A stretch of DNA of 64,000 bases from an uncultured Eubacteriales bacterium (GTDB lineage: Bacteria > Bacillota > Clostridia > Christensenellales > Aristaeellaceae): contig CACWLY010000006.1 of the NCBI GenBank assembly GCA_902761825.1, forward strand, positions 1 to 64,000, in the 5' to 3' direction. Position 1 is the stretch's first letter; each line of letters begins with the position of its first letter. Position numbers and translations under genes: made by a program. This document shows, piece by piece, positions 58 through 52,145 of this stretch. The notes below the pieces were generated by a model. It was not told the origin of the DNA. It ran no database searches and saw nothing but the letters and a program-made list of their open reading frames with translations.

Positions 58-133
58 CTTCCTGATCTTAATTCCCCATTTGCATTATGGCTCTTAGAAC
101 GTGAATAATATGATATCTAAAAAACCTGTTTTC

Positions 134-16252: not shown

Positions 16253-16897
16253 ATGAAGATCCGAAGAATTGTCATGAGCGTCGCGGGCGTGCTGATCGGC
16301 GGCATGTTCGCCGGGCTGTTCCAGTTCGTCGCCTTTGGCGTCGATCCCTTCCAATGCTTTGTCAACGGCTGTCATGCCGTGATTCCCATGGAATTCGGCA
16401 CGCTGTACCTGATCCTGAACGCCGCGCTGCTGTCCTTCGCGCTGCTGGCGGACCGCCATTATATCGGCCTCGCCACTCTGATCAATATGTTTTTGCTGGG
16501 CTATGTGGTGCAGTTTACGTATCAGGGGCTGCAATCGCTGATCCCCGCGCCGTCCGTCGCGCTGCGCGTGGCGCTCATGCCCGTGGCGCTTCTCGGCCTG
16601 TGCGTCACCGGATCGCTGTATATTACCGCCGATCTGGGCGTTTCCACCTATGACGCGGTCGCGCTGATCATCTCCAACACCTGGCACAAAATGCAGTTCC
16701 GCTTTTGCCGGATCATCACCGATCTCGTCTGCGTGCTGATCGGTTCCGGGCTCTTCCTGCTCTCCGGCGGAACCTTTGCCCGGCTCACCGCCATCGCAGG
16801 CGTCGGCACCGTTCTGACGGCCTTCTGCATGGGCCCGGTCATCGCCTGGTGCAACGAGCACATTTCCAAGCCGCTGCTCGGGAAGAGCGAGCAATAA
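16253..16897 (+). CDS. YczE/YitT-family membrane protein
   Basis: The 214-residue protein has about five to six transmembrane helices. It contains a D-L-G-V-S-x-Y-D-A segment (near residues 128-136) typical of YczE/YyaS/YitT proteins, whose function is poorly defined. The start lies 4 bases after the stop of the metallo-hydrolase gene with no clear ribosome binding site, so translation is probably coupled to that gene. Confidence 0.7.
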   Translation: MKIRRIVMSVAGVLIGGMFAGLFQFVAFGVDPFQCFVNGCHAVIPMEFGTLYLILNAALLSFALLADRHYIGLATLINMFLLGYVVQFTYQGLQSLIPAPSVALRVALMPVALLGLCVTGSLYITADLGVSTYDAVALIISNTWHKMQFRFCRIITDLVCVLIGSGLFLLSGGTFARLTAIAGVGTVLTAFCMGPVIAWCNEHISKPLLGKSEQ

Positions 16898-16945
16898 TAC
16901 CCTTTTCCCATTCAGCGGATAATCGGCAAAAAAACACCGGGGGCC

Positions 16946-17057
16946 TTATACTATTCTCAATCTAAAATCTTATCATCTTTGGGTGTCTTTTCCGTCTTGG
17001 CGTTGCTTCATTCCGGTCAACGTAGCGCTGCTACGCCTTATACTGAGAATAGTATTA
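16946..17057. mobile_element. MITE-like element, short copy
   Basis: The element runs from TTATACTATTCTCA to TGAGAATAGTATTA, which are inverted relative to each other. The first 90 or so bases match 49751 onward without a visible difference. This copy lacks 46 bases near its right end that the other copy has, so its right inverted arm is truncated to the last 15 bases. It carries no transposase and a small internal palindrome (GTAGCGCTGCTAC). It occupies most of the 16898-17099 gap. Confidence 0.8.
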
Positions 17058-17099
17058 GCTGCTCCCGGCGTTCTTTTTATCGTTTTTTTCAGGCCAGTA

Positions 17100-17984
17100 T
17101 CAGATCAGCGTGACGGTGAACCAGGTCGTGTATACCTTGCCCGGGGCCAGCAGCGTCACATAGGGCTTGTCCTCAAAGTTATCGCTGTCCTGAACGCGGC
17201 CCGGCATGCCGTGCCAGGGCTCCAGGCAGACGTAGTCGGCGTTCGCGTGGGGCATGGACCACACGGCGAGCACTTCCATTTTGGGGAAATCGAAGCGCAG
17301 GCCGCGCCCGCTGACCCGGTGCACCAGATCGACGCTGCGGCTGTTCAGCCCGGCGAAGATCAGCGCGTCGCGCTCGTCGAACATCTTATGGGAAAGAGGG
17401 AGCACGCGCCCGTCCTTGAGCTCGCTCAGCTGCTCGGTTCCGTCCACCAGATAGCCGTTGGGCGCAAGCGTGTTTTCGCCCGATTCCTGCCTGGCGAACA
17501 CCAGCTGATAATCCTCGAAGGCCGCGCCGGGTTCCATGGGGCAGATAAAGCCCGGATGCCCGCCCACGCACAGGGGCATGACGCGGTCTGATTTGTTTTC
17601 GATCAGGAAGGTGGTGGTATAGCCGTTTTCAAACAGACGGTAGGTGACGTGGAAAGCGAAATCGAACGGATACATCGGCTTGCTTTCCTCGGTGGGCGTC
17701 AGCACCAGATCGACGAAGTCCTCGCCCGTATGCGCGAACGCGAAATCCGGGTTCCGCGTGAAGCCGTGCTTGGTCATGGGATAGGTTTCGCCCGCAATGA
17801 CGATCTTTCCGTCCCGAACCGAACCGCATACCGGAAACAGCACCGGCGCGTGCTGCGCCCATACGGCGGGATCGGCCTGCCAGATCACCTCGCGGCCGTC
17901 GGTCCCTTTGAAGGAAGTGATCTGCGCGCCCTGTTGGCGGACGGTCGCCTCGGTGCCGCCGTAACGAAGCTTGATTTCAGCCAT
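17100..17984 (-). CDS. Aldose 1-epimerase family protein (LacX-like)
   Basis: This 294-residue protein has the galactose-mutarotase fold and resembles the LacX/YeaD-type branch of aldose 1-epimerases. These proteins interconvert anomers of free or phosphorylated sugars in the cytoplasm. Conserved-looking stretches include VLFPVCGS, KHGFTRN and GGHPGF, with His residues where the catalytic pair is expected. There is no signal peptide. A GAGGAGGG site lies before the ATG at 17984. It is adjacent to a helicase gene on the same strand, without an obvious functional link. The substrate is unknown. Confidence 0.8.
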   Translation of the reverse strand: MAEIKLRYGGTEATVRQQGAQITSFKGTDGREVIWQADPAVWAQHAPVLFPVCGSVRDGKIVIAGETYPMTKHGFTRNPDFAFAHTGEDFVDLVLTPTEESKPMYPFDFAFHVTYRLFENGYTTTFLIENKSDRVMPLCVGGHPGFICPMEPGAAFEDYQLVFARQESGENTLAPNGYLVDGTEQLSELKDGRVLPLSHKMFDERDALIFAGLNSRSVDLVHRVSGRGLRFDFPKMEVLAVWSMPHANADYVCLEPWHGMPGRVQDSDNFEDKPYVTLLAPGKVYTTWFTVTLI

Positions 17985-47159: not shown

Positions 47160-48214
47160 CGCAATTCTTCAGAACGATCCTGGAATGGATCTATGGCGTG
47201 GTGGGCAATTACGGCATAGCCGTCGTTGTGTTCACCCTGCTGATCCGCACCATCCTCACCCCGCTGGAAATCAGCTCCCGTAAGGGAATGCGCAAAATGT
47301 CCGCGATCCAGCCCAAGCTCAACGCCCTGCAGCAGAAGTACGGCAAGGATCAGGCCAAGCTTCAGCAGAAACAGCAGGAACTGATGAAAAAGGAACACTA
47401 CAACCCCCTGTCCGGCTGCCTGCCCATGCTGATCCAGTGGCCGATCCTGATCATTATGTTCTACGCCATGCGCGACGTGGCCAACGCCAACATCGTCAAC
47501 CAGGCCTTCACCTTCCTCAAAGGCGAGACGCCCGTTTACGAGCCCTTCCTTTGGGTCAGAAACGTGTTCATGGCCGACTCTCCCTTCAAGACCGCAGCCG
47601 TCGACGCCAATTCCCTGCTCGCTTCGGGCGCGGGGATCTGGAAGGAAGCGCTGCAGAAGCTCTCCGCGGGCGATCTGGAAGTCATCCTGCAGAACATCCG
47701 CGCGGCCGTTCCTGCCGCCGCCGAAATGACCCAGGACCAGATCTTCAACTTCGCCAGCGCCAACGCCGTGCGCGATACCGTCAACATCTATCTCATGCCC
47801 GCCCTGCAGAGCATGCCCGCCTATACCGAGGCCGTAGCGGCCGTGCCCGGCTGGGCCGGCGTCAGTCTGCTGCTGTTCAAGGTTACCCTGTACAAGCAGT
47901 TCAACGGTCTGCTGATCCTGCCGATCCTGTCGGGCGTGACGCAGGTGCTCATGACCAAGCTGAACCCCTCCATGCAGCAGCCCACGGCGCAGCCCGGCGC
48001 GCAGGGACAGTCCACTTCCAACAGCATGAACAATTTCATGAAGTATTTCTTCCCGCTGTTCTCGGTCTTTATCTGCCTGAGCAGCAACGCGGGCTTCGCC
48101 CTGTACTGGTGCGCTATCAACCTGTTCGCCACCGGACAATCCATTCTGATCAACAAATACCTTGAAAATCAGGAGGCCAAGGTGGCCGTTGCCGAGGAGG
48201 GCACTGTAAAATGA
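47156..48214 (+). CDS. yidC: Membrane protein insertase YidC/Oxa1
   Basis: The 352-residue insertase has the Oxa1 core: a first span near residues 15-35, the conserved [22 protein letters not shown] coiled region, [13 protein letters not shown], and later spans from about 240 to 330. It has no lipoprotein signal, unlike Bacillus SpoIIIJ. A large segment of about 100 residues between the second and third spans is longer than usual and probably faces outside. It overlaps jag by 4 bases. Confidence 0.93.
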
Positions 48215-49257
48215 GAAAGACTTATGAAGCCAAGGGCAAGACGCGCGAAGAGGCGATCGACGCCGGCCTGGACGCGCTGGGCATGACCATCGATGAAGTG
48301 ACCGTAGAGGACGTTGAAGAGGGCAGCAAGGGCCTGTTCGGCCTGTTCGGCAGCCGTCCCTGGATCGTGCGCCTGACCGCGATCAAGGACGACGAGAAGA
48401 CCGACGTGCTGGATACGCATTCGCTCTTCGCCGATTCGCTCGAAGAGAAAAAGCAGCCCGCGCCCAAGAAGGAAAAAGCGCCCGCCGCCGAAAAGAAACC
48501 GGCTGAAAAGAAGGAAGCCGCTCCCGCCGAAAAGCAGGAGCAGCCCGCCGAAAAGAAGACGCGCAAGCCCGCCGAAAAGAAGCAGCCTGCCGACAAGCAG
48601 GAAAAGAAGCAGCCCGCCGAGAAAAAGCAGCCCGCTGAAAAGGCCGAAAAGAAGCCTGCGCGCAAGCCCCGCGCCGAAGCTGAAAAGAAGCCCGTGACCC
48701 CCGCCGAGCAGGCCGACCGCGAAACCGCCGCCGGCACGGCGCAGGATTTCCTGCAGGAGCTGACCAAGCTCATGGGCGTGGAAGTTTCCGTGCATGTGAA
48801 CACCGACGAGGAAGGTAACGTGCGCGTCAACATGGAAGGCGACAGCCAGGGCATCCTGATCGGCCGCCGCGGCGAAACGCTGGACGCCCTGCAGTACCTG
48901 ACCAGCCTCAAGGTCAATAAGGGCAAGAGCGATTACACCCGCGTCACGCTGGATACCGAGGGCTACCGCGCCCGCCGCGAAGAAGCGCTCGTGCGCCTGG
49001 CCAACCGCATGGCCAACCGCGCGGTCAAGACCGGCCGCCGGGTCAGCATCGAGCCCATGAATCCCTACGAGCGCCGCATCCTGCATTCCGCGCTCCAGGA
49101 TAATCCCGACGTAACCACGCATTCCGAAGGCGAAGAGCCCAACCGCCATGTCGTGATCACCGTGAACAAGCCCGTGAAGGGCAAGAAGCCCGCGGCTCCG
49201 GCTGAACCCGAAGCCCCCGCCGCCGAGGAAGCCGCCGAGGAGAACGCCGAGGCTTAA
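48211..49257 (+). CDS. jag: RNA-binding protein Jag/KhpB
   Basis: The 348-residue protein has the three-part Jag layout: a Jag_N domain (residues 1-60, ..VEEGSKGLFGLFGSRP), a KH domain (about 190-260, LIGRRGETLDALQYL) and an R3H domain (about 265-325, NPYERRILHSALQ). A linker of about 90 residues rich in Lys, Ala, Pro and Glu (repeated PAEKK) lies between the first two. Jag/KhpB with KhpA binds RNA and affects cell-wall synthesis and division in Gram-positive bacteria. The Ala/Glu tail is acidic. Confidence 0.93.
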   Translation: MRKTYEAKGKTREEAIDAGLDALGMTIDEVTVEDVEEGSKGLFGLFGSRPWIVRLTAIKDDEKTDVLDTHSLFADSLEEKKQPAPKKEKAPAAEKKPAEKKEAAPAEKQEQPAEKKTRKPAEKKQPADKQEKKQPAEKKQPAEKAEKKPARKPRAEAEKKPVTPAEQADRETAAGTAQDFLQELTKLMGVEVSVHVNTDEEGNVRVNMEGDSQGILIGRRGETLDALQYLTSLKVNKGKSDYTRVTLDTEGYRARREEALVRLANRMANRAVKTGRRVSIEPMNPYERRILHSALQDNPDVTTHSEGEEPNRHVVITVNKPVKGKKPAAPAEPEAPAAEEAAEENAEA

Positions 49258-49277: not shown

Positions 49278-49302
49278 GGGCAAGAGCGAGTTTCTGCAGG
49301 GT

Positions 49303-49369
49303 GAATGAAGCGCGGGAAGGGGAACGTCAGGGCCTGCGCGATCCGGGACCTTCCAGCCCGCCCTCGCTG
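49303..49369. repeat. Dispersed repeat, third copy
   Basis: It matches 6273-6339 at about 85% by eye. Downstream, TTCCGGGCGC recurs after a different hairpin insert (GCTGGCC..GGCCAG). It is part of the 785-base gene-free island 49258-50042. Confidence 0.7.
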
Positions 49370-49526
49370 TTCGCTTGCGCTGGCCGAAGGCCAGGATTAT
49401 CATCCCAAGGGAAGGCTTTCCGGGCGCCCGAAACAACCGGACCCAGCTGCGGCGGTTGCTACGCAATATGTCGAAATTGCAACTTGCCGCTGTCGGTTGG
49501 ATAGCGTGTGCCACCGCTCCCGGGCG

Positions 49527-49741
49527 GGCCAGCTTTGCTGGCCGACTGTGCGTGAAGCGCACAGTGAAAAAGAGGGAAAATTCCCGATAAAACAAGCTCG
49601 CTTGTTTTTCGGCAGATTTTCCCTCTTTTTCTTTATGCCCGTGAGCTTGCTTGCCCCCATAGGCCAAACAGGCGGAAGCAACCCTGAATTACGCCCTGCG
49701 CTTCATCGCCGGGATGGGTCCAGGGTCCAGGCGGACCCTGG
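49527..49741. repeat. Cluster of four perfect hairpins
   Basis: Four inverted repeats sit in a row: GGCCAGC/GCTGGCC (49527-49543), ACTGTGCG/CGCACAGT (49545-49565), a 16-bp stem GAAAAAGAGGGAAAAT with its complement (49566-49581, 49616-49631) that encloses a smaller ACAAGC/GCTTGT stem, and CCAGGGTCC/GGACCCTGG (49720-49741). The third has a T-run and could end transcription of jag. No coding frame is supported. Confidence 0.75.
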
Positions 49742-49750
49742 TGCGGGGTC

Positions 49751-49908
49751 TTATACTATTCTCAATCTAAAATCTTATCATCTTTGGGTGTCTTTTCCGT
49801 CTTGGCGTTGCTTCATTCCGGTCAACGTAGCGCTGCTACGCCTCCCGCTTAGCCAGGGCGAAAAATCCATCCCAAATCTGATAATCTTTTATACTGAGAA
49901 TAGTATTA
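49751..49908. mobile_element. MITE-like element, long copy
   Basis: It begins TTATACTATTCTCA and ends TGAGAATAGTATTA. Pairing extends inward for about 35 bases with a handful of mismatches, so the inverted ends are long. It carries no transposase. It matches 16946-17057 throughout, apart from a 46-base segment (about 49848-49893) missing there. It lies within the repeat island, directly next to an inverted fragment of the other repeat family. Confidence 0.82.
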
Positions 49909-49914
49909 GGGGCC

Positions 49915-49938
49915 GCAGAGGCCCCTAACGTTTCCCTT
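49915..49938. repeat. Inverted fragment of the dispersed repeat
   Basis: The reverse complement reads AAGGGAAACGTTAGGGGCC and matches the start of the copies at 6287-6310 and 49313-49338. With the copy at 49303 it forms the two inverted ends of the island. Confidence 0.6.
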
Positions 49939-49985
49939 CTGTGCTTTATATTTTATGGCTCTGAGCCTGAGGCTCATATCACAAC

Positions 49986-50042: not shown

Positions 50043-52145
50043 TTATGCCTGCGCTTCGATCTTTACGGCTTTATGCCCGGTCAGCTCTTCTGTGCGCTTG
50101 TCGGGCTGGCCGACGCCGGCGTACAGCGCGATCCTGCCTTCGGACACGCGATTGCCTTCGGGATCGACAACCAGCAGGCTGCGGGCGGGCACGGTGAGCG
50201 CGACCTGTTTTTCCCGGCCGGCCGGCAGACGCACGCGTTGGAACGCGACCAGGCGCGGATTGGCGGGCGCGTTCGCGCTGCCCTCGTTCTGGCAGTAGAT
50301 CTGAACGACCTCGTCGGTATCCGCTTTGCCGTCGTTTTTGACCGTGACGGAAACGAGGATGCCGCCGTCAGCCTTTTGCGCTTCCGCTTTTACCACGGAC
50401 GCGTCGCCGTAGGTCAGTCCGTAGCCGAAGGGATAAAGGGGCTTGCCCGCGAAGTAACGGTACGTGCGGTTATTCATCGAATAATCGGTAAAATCGGGCA
50501 TTTCGCCAAGCTGGCTGTTGTAATAGAAGGTCACGGGCAGCTTGCCGCTGGGGGATACGCGGCCCAGCAGGAGATCGGCGATCACCTTGCCGCCCTGCGC
50601 GCCGGGATACCAGCCCAGCAGCACGGCGTCGGCTTTTTCTCCGGCTTCGGCCAGGTCGATTGCGCTGCCGGCGAGCAGCACGATCACGGTGGGCTTGCCC
50701 ACGGCAAGCACCTTGTTCATCAGCCGCTGTTGGGGATCGGGCAGCAGCAGGCGCGCCTTGTCGTCCGAGCCGAAGGGATTGCCGGTATCGCCCTGCTCAC
50801 CCTCCATGGTCTCGTCCATGCCGACCACCAGCACTACGGCGTCGCTGTTTTCGGCCACGGTCAGCGCTTCGGCCATGCGGTCGTCGTTGAACTGGGACAG
50901 CCCGTCCACCTTGTCGAAATACAGATGGCAGCCTTCGCTGCACAGCACCCGGGCCTTGCCCGCGAAAGCGTCCTGAATGCCTTCCTGCACGGTAATGTAG
51001 CGGCTGGCCGTGCCGTGATAATTGCCCATCAGGGCGCGGCGGCTGTCGGCGTTGGGGCCGATGACGCCGATGGTTTTGATCTTGCTCGTATCGAGGGGCA
51101 GCATGCCGTTGTTCTTGAGCAGCACGCAGGATTCATAACCCGCCTGGCGCGCTTTGGCGAGATGCTCCTCGCATTCGACCACGGTGTAGGGGATGCTGTC
51201 GTATTCCGTGCCTTCGCCCATGATGCCCAGCATATACCGGGTGGTGAACAGGTGCACGGCGGCGCGGCGGACGGCTTCCTCGGTGGTCAGCCCCATCTGC
51301 ACGGCGGCGACCAGCTTGTTATCGTACGTACAGCCGCAGTTCAGGTCGCAGCCCATGTTGACGGCCATCGCGGCGGACTGCACCTCGTTTTCGGTCACGT
51401 GATGCCCCTCGTGGAAATCGCGGATCGCCCAGCAGTCCGAGACGAAATGCCCTTCAAAGCCCCATTCGCGCAGCTTGCCCATCAGAAAATCCGAAGCGCA
51501 GCAGGGCTCGCCGTTGGTGCGGTTGTACGCGCCCATCACCGATTCCACGCGCGCTTCCTTTACCAGCGCTTCAAAGGCGGGCAGATAGGTTTCTTCCATG
51601 TCCTTTTTGCCGGCGACGGCGTCGAACTCATGGCGCAGCTTTTCGGGGCCGCTGTGCACGGCGAAATGTTTGGCGCAGGCGCCGGCTTTCAGATATTCGC
51701 CGTCGCCCTGCAGGCCGCGCACGTACGCCTTGCCCATTTCGGCGGTCAGCGTGGGGTCTTCGCCGAAGGTCTCCTGGCCGCGTCCCCAGCGGGGATCGCG
51801 GAAAATGTTGATGTTGGGGGACCAGAAGGTGAGCCCCTTGTAGATATCCCGGTCGCCGTGCGCGCTGGCCGCGTTGTACTTGGCCCGGCCTTCGGTGGCG
51901 GAGATATCGCCGAGCGCTTCGATCAGGGCGGGATCGAAGGTAGCGCCCAGACCGATGGCCTGGGGATACATGGTGGCTGCGCCGGCGCGGGCTACGCCGT
52001 GCAGGGCTTCGTTCCACCAGTTGTAGGCGGGCACGCCCAGACGCTCGATGGCCGGGGCGCGATAGCTCAATTGATCACAGACCTCTTCCATGGTCATCTG
52101 GCTGACCAGCGCTTCGGCCTTTTTGCGCGCGATTTCTCGGTTCAT
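50043..52145 (-). CDS. Glycoside hydrolase family 3 beta-glycosidase
   Basis: The 700-residue enzyme has the GH3 TIM barrel (WSPNINIFRDPRWGRGQE near 108, KHF near 160, the nucleophile Asp237 in FVSDCWAI), the (alpha/beta)6 sandwich and a C-terminal fibronectin-III-like domain (from about 610). No signal peptide is present, so it acts inside the cell on imported oligosaccharides. SDC where many beta-glucosidases have SDW resembles the xylosidase/arabinosidase branch. The xylulokinase two genes upstream also favours beta-xylosidase. GAGCAATACGCC lies before the start, so the ribosome binding site is weak (AGGAGC). Confidence 0.88.
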   Translation of the reverse strand: MNREIARKKAEALVSQMTMEEVCDQLSYRAPAIERLGVPAYNWWNEALHGVARAGAATMYPQAIGLGATFDPALIEALGDISATEGRAKYNAASAHGDRDIYKGLTFWSPNINIFRDPRWGRGQETFGEDPTLTAEMGKAYVRGLQGDGEYLKAGACAKHFAVHSGPEKLRHEFDAVAGKKDMEETYLPAFEALVKEARVESVMGAYNRTNGEPCCASDFLMGKLREWGFEGHFVSDCWAIRDFHEGHHVTENEVQSAAMAVNMGCDLNCGCTYDNKLVAAVQMGLTTEEAVRRAAVHLFTTRYMLGIMGEGTEYDSIPYTVVECEEHLAKARQAGYESCVLLKNNGMLPLDTSKIKTIGVIGPNADSRRALMGNYHGTASRYITVQEGIQDAFAGKARVLCSEGCHLYFDKVDGLSQFNDDRMAEALTVAENSDAVVLVVGMDETMEGEQGDTGNPFGSDDKARLLLPDPQQRLMNKVLAVGKPTVIVLLAGSAIDLAEAGEKADAVLLGWYPGAQGGKVIADLLLGRVSPSGKLPVTFYYNSQLGEMPDFTDYSMNNRTYRYFAGKPLYPFGYGLTYGDASVVKAEAQKADGGILVSVTVKNDGKADTDEVVQIYCQNEGSANAPANPRLVAFQRVRLPAGREKQVALTVPARSLLVVDPEGNRVSEGRIALYAGVGQPDKRTEELTGHKAVKIEAQA

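Follow-up and report, generated by a model that had tools for sequence, protein, structure and literature searches.

A family of 160-bp MITEs that integrate at TNA sites, with a conserved, probably selected one-strand fold and a copy-length difference that is probably an assembly artefact

The window, which is the whole 64,000-nucleotide stretch of DNA that we analyzed, belongs to a draft genome (G000; 2.87 Mb, 178 contigs, 87% complete) and contains two copies of a short element. According to the lists of open reading frames (ORFs), the short copy lies between convergent ORFs at 16253-16897 (plus strand) and 17100-17984 (minus strand), and the long copy lies between ORFs at 48211-49257 (plus strand) and 50043-52145 (minus strand). 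The original prediction that one element occupies both 16946-17057 and 49751-49908 proved exact in its coordinates, and the sole difference between the copies is 46 bases that are missing in the short copy. The two copies agree at every position of their left parts (94 bases from 16945 and 49750) and of their right parts (21 bases). The features are:

16946..16948, plus strand: TTA, left target duplication of the short copy
16949..17054, plus strand: short copy, 106 bp, without 54 bases of the 160-bp consensus
17037..17038, no strand: probable assembly join in the short copy, after 89 bases of the element (position uncertain by 1-2 bases)
17055..17057, plus strand: TTA, right target duplication of the short copy
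49360..49425, plus strand: empty site related to the filled site of locus L026 (ggattaTcat versus ggatTAA[element]TAAcgg)
49751..49753, plus strand: TTA, left target duplication of the long copy
49754..49905, plus strand: long copy, 152 bp, without 8 consensus bases
49754..49905, minus strand: folding strand of the long copy, with the four conserved tandem G.A motifs on the minus strand
49846..49847, no strand: probable assembly join in the long copy, 93 bases into the element
49906..49908, plus strand: TTA, right target duplication of the long copy

The short copy is situated within the loop of a likely bidirectional terminator (window 16930-17080, AACACCGGGGGCCTTA / GCTGCTCCCGGCGTT). Insertion into terminator loops as a general rule was rejected, because only 1 of 55 sites scores at least 18, with a control fraction of 0.04.

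In G000, 128 matches to a 26-base segment of the left arm are present when up to 3 mismatches are permitted, far more than chance would give, and a reversed control pattern occurs 0 times. Searching for further copies and aligning them with their flanks yielded many copies, so the objection that no others exist fails. The aligned copies define the intact form as a 160-bp consensus, which starts with TACTATTCTCAATCTAAAATC, finishes with ATACTGAGAATAGTA and has the termini TAC...GTA. The terminal inverted repeats of a MITE are present and are longer than the approximately 35 bases claimed at first: over 58 bp, the alignment of the arms reaches 78%, and the TAC...GTA ends are found across genera. 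Direct repeats of 3 bp with the sequence TNA flank most two-ended copies, and the tally in element orientation for G000 and other genomes is TAA 46, TTA 26, TGA 11 and TCA 2. The duplication therefore covers the middle base N as well, unlike a duplication of TA only. Insertion is further supported by two related empty sites. The longer repeat around the window long copy and the L016 copy has, in L066, a single TTA where the element would sit, and the repeat around the L026 copy is present without an element near 49400 of the window, where it reads TAT in place of the duplicated TAA of L026. A coding function was rejected, since frame 0 is open in G000 yet no reading frame is conserved across families. 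Within the window, no Rfam match reached the gathering score, with the best permissive match far under threshold, and no description of this element family was found in the literature searched. The claim of a MITE is upheld by a copy number above 100, the TNA direct repeats of 3 bp, the pair of related empty sites and the lack of a conserved ORF, and we conclude that the window copies are members of a real non-autonomous inverted-repeat transposon (MITE) family of 160 bp that integrates at TNA.

In the window, the long copy itself lies within a second, longer non-coding repeat (approximately 49282-49950). This repeat is approximately 480 bp in L066, with the ends AGAGCCA...TGGCTCT and an apparent TA duplication, and elsewhere it sits inside a MITE arm (noted among L066, L016, L236, L240 and L170).

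Several known elements resemble this family in part. RUP of Streptococcus pneumoniae is also an intergenic MITE, with a length of 107 bp, approximately 100 copies, inverted ends and a predicted hairpin (PMC2229807, PMC3049150), and it is also enriched between convergent genes (PMC3049150). However, RUP uses TA targets and resembles IS630-Spn1 ends, whereas the element described here uses TNA and has no known partner. Assignment to RUP or another IS630-type MITE, which would duplicate TA only, was rejected because the middle base N is also duplicated. ERIC of enterobacteria is likewise an intergenic imperfect palindrome but differs in sequence and host, and the element here duplicates TNA. The NEMIS/Correia elements of Neisseria are MITEs with a transcript hairpin that is a proposed target of RNase III (PMC2229807); their host is unrelated, and in contrast to them the family here has a covarying one-strand fold conserved across genera.

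The short copy had been interpreted as an internal deletion of the long copy, and this interpretation was not supported by the breakpoints. Single clean deletions are present in 38 of the 62 two-ended copies. Measured from the element end at the left of the contig, the left edge of the deletion lies at 86-99 bp in forward copies (17) and at 89-96 bp in reversed copies (21). In element coordinates, the same edges fall at 86-99 (forward) versus 65-72 (reversed; Mann-Whitney p=1.5e-7). The deletion edges thus track the orientation of the contig and not that of the element, which indicates that the joins are products of assembly. Contig orientation is arbitrary, and we know of no biological process that yields breakpoints dependent on it. 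Furthermore, the long copy itself lacks 8 consensus bases. Twelve contigs stop 89-95 bp into an element, and larger insertions, some of which then run into N, duplicate the central 22-25 bases, which approximates the overlap expected if two contig ends each reach approximately 93 bp into a 160-bp repeat. Half copies within contigs are nearly all left halves by contig direction, for which reason half elements were rejected as biological products. Contigs from either flank would have run approximately 93 bp into the repeat and then been joined with a piece missing.

A genuine internal-deletion derivative, produced at the center of the palindrome through slippage or cleavage of the hairpin, would be compatible with the clean ends and intact TTA duplication of the short copy, and central palindromes are known to be unstable. 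However, this origin is very improbable, because the breakpoints follow contig orientation rather than element orientation, contig ends and N runs occur at an equal distance into the element, and half copies are almost always left halves in the direction of the contig. Judged from the breakpoint pattern, the 46 bases by which the window copies differ probably reflect a short-read assembly artefact, with each copy probably carrying one join at which 54 bases are absent after base 89 (short copy) or 8 bases are absent after base 93 (long copy). In draft metagenome genomes, the assembler can create length polymorphism of short repeats, and testing breakpoints against contig orientation, which exposes the artefact, is needed for claims of deletion derivatives in MAGs. 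At L067 (1490-1610), half an element is located between 10-bp direct repeats TTGGAATTAA, which is possibly another assembly join.

A DNA search of relatives returned several matches, which were limited to the middle of the element. When species genomes were scanned with a pattern of this core, 70 stretches were retrieved; they come from Clostridia MAGs, many of which are ruminant-derived by title, and the elements in those stretches are approximately 159-161 bp with TAC...GTA ends, TNA duplications and arms that differ but are still complementary. When a covariance model of the core was run against the host's family, 80 of 200 genomes, representing 27 of 50 genera, gave matches, with at least 20 scored candidates in several genomes. 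Among 291 genomes of the class, G000 was the sole match under strict filters that may miss copies. We conclude that these elements form a superfamily with members in many genera of the family to which the host belongs. Since the core served as the query in the wide scans, part of its conservation compared with the ends results from how the elements were selected; a search with the end pattern also returned mostly core-bearing elements, with exceptions. The core was also observed in elements with unrelated ends (L035, L290, L233, L174; L049, L289: AAGGCAACACCGCACA; GGAAACGCTGATTTA), so it has been joined to at least two different sets of ends, and L254 is an IS-like locus with ends (AGGGCAATACCGCACA) similar to those unrelated ends. 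Longer variants of 209-251 bp (L051, L052, L138, L167 and L173) have an extra insertion at one shared place in the core.

The 160-bp consensus folds as a single hairpin on either strand (z = -10.6 and -8.9 versus 200 shuffles). For 20 divergent cores, RNAalifold predicted 33 pairs, with both-side (compensatory) changes in 21 of them, and paired cells amounted to 93.5% versus 82.4% in shuffles. None of 500 shuffles reached any observed fold measure. Sliding the partners by 1-3 columns, a control that preserves relatedness where shuffles do not, lowered the covariation score from 0.375 to at most 0.123. In 29 full-length elements, 41 of the 61 stem columns have at least two Watson-Crick types. 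One strand retains four conserved tandem G.A/A.G motifs (at columns 29-30/141-140, 40+42/131-130, 64-65/108-107 and 68-70/104-102), and T.C mismatches would occupy the other. On the G.A strand, stem columns favor G.U over A.C by 65 to 32 cells, which is a moderate asymmetry, and the predicted energy is lower (-72.5 versus -58.2 kcal/mol). The apical stem varies as GTAGC/GCTAC, GATGC/GCATC and GACGC/GCGTC. A transposase binding both ends could likewise explain why the outer arms covary, but the inner stems (helix 3) and the apical stem are far from the ends, which speaks for folding. The predicted fold, which appears to be strand-specific and single-stranded, is a long hairpin: its stems covary, it contains the four tandem G.A motifs, and a small stem forms its apex. 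Selection probably acts on the element both as a folded single strand and at its ends. The proposal that the element may form an RNA hairpin when transcribed is therefore supported as to conserved single-strand folding, but in the present data a fold acting as RNA is indistinguishable from one acting as single-stranded DNA, and its mode of action is what we infer. Covariation of the stems across genera, inner stems included, and fixation of the G.A motifs on one strand make selection of bacterial MITEs as RNA or single-stranded DNA testable.

The element is presumably moved in trans by a DDE-type transposase. The need for a transposase in trans, as the original prediction had it, is plausible, but a transposase with matching ends was sought and not found. 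A 3-bp TNA target duplication characterizes the IS427 and IS1031 groups of the IS5 family and is shared by MITEs derived from that family, which suggests that an IS5-like DDE enzyme may act on the element. In contrast to those MITEs, the ends here begin with TAC, and the IS5-type elements of relatives have different ends, including DUF4096 transposases (L302-L305) without TAC...GTA. The domains PF01609, PF13586 and PF13340 are absent from assembled G000, a draft of the kind from which repeated IS are easily lost, and none of the transposase loci taken from other element-rich genomes showed TAC...GTA ends. No autonomous partner was found with the end pattern next to other neighboring bases or with long-spaced end pairs, which turned up nested repeats instead.

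Gene context was assigned with a codon model trained on the window and heuristic gene calls. Among 50 copies in G000, 27 are between convergent genes, 23 between co-directional genes, and none between divergent genes or inside genes; the other genomes contributed 14 convergent, 24 co-directional and 0 divergent copies, with a few loci duplicated. Thus, 0 of 88 copies are between divergent genes, and at least one gene is always upstream of the copy. Intergenic bases of the window comprise 4972 co-directional, 2166 convergent and 1777 divergent. The folding strand is mostly antisense to the co-directional gene (19 to 4). Some target duplications coincide with the in-frame stop codon of the gene upstream, and in these one particular element end points toward the gene in 26 cases and the opposite end in 1; at other distances from the gene, neither end predominates (65 to 61; Fisher p = 5.6e-6). 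This count is strict in that ORFs running off the flank were left out, and no gaps of 1-8 bases were seen at the favored element end. Settling exactly on stop codons in one direction is not known to us for bacterial MITEs, and this one-sided insertion has no ready explanation. Target preferences (following bases R and A) may explain part of the bias, although not obviously all of it. We consider it unlikely that the conserved one-strand fold and the strict stop-codon orientation of this family-wide mobile hairpin mean that host-gene transcription or translation guides or filters its insertion.

The orientation bias at stop codons and the one-strand fold with its conserved mismatch motifs would also be consistent with movement as folded single-stranded DNA recognized by its hairpin, rather than through a double-strand DDE transposase. 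This mode of movement seems most unlikely, given that a 3-bp target duplication is observed and orientation is unbiased away from stop codons. To our knowledge, the HUH enzymes of the IS200/IS605 or REP type produce no 3-bp target duplication, and a REPIN or REP element mobilized by HUH enzymes was rejected on the same basis.

Alternatively, the element could primarily be a 3'-end regulatory RNA of the host that is copied around and selected for its effect on upstream mRNA. Such a role would account for the conserved one-strand fold, the position of every copy downstream of at least one gene and away from divergent pairs, and the stop-codon duplications with one end facing the gene. ERIC is reported to alter upstream mRNA stability in one orientation (PMC2229807), which by analogy might suggest a selection model for the stop-codon bias. 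However, G000 copies are nearly identical with intact target duplications, which indicates recent spread, and the strand that folds is in most cases antisense to the co-directional gene. Furthermore, a similar enrichment of pneumococcal RUP, SPRITE and IS elements in convergent regions was interpreted as tolerance (PMC3049150). We therefore regard a primarily regulatory element as improbable. Taken together, the observations are very likely explained by a TNA-integrating MITE that is moved in trans, has a conserved and probably selected one-strand fold, and owes the 46-base difference between its window copies to assembly.

Examples of target duplications at stop codons with F-left ends are L006, L022, L025, L030, L168, L172 and L228. 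At the favored end, a G directly before the target duplication was observed at 9 of 22 stop-codon sites versus 4 of 105 non-stop sites.
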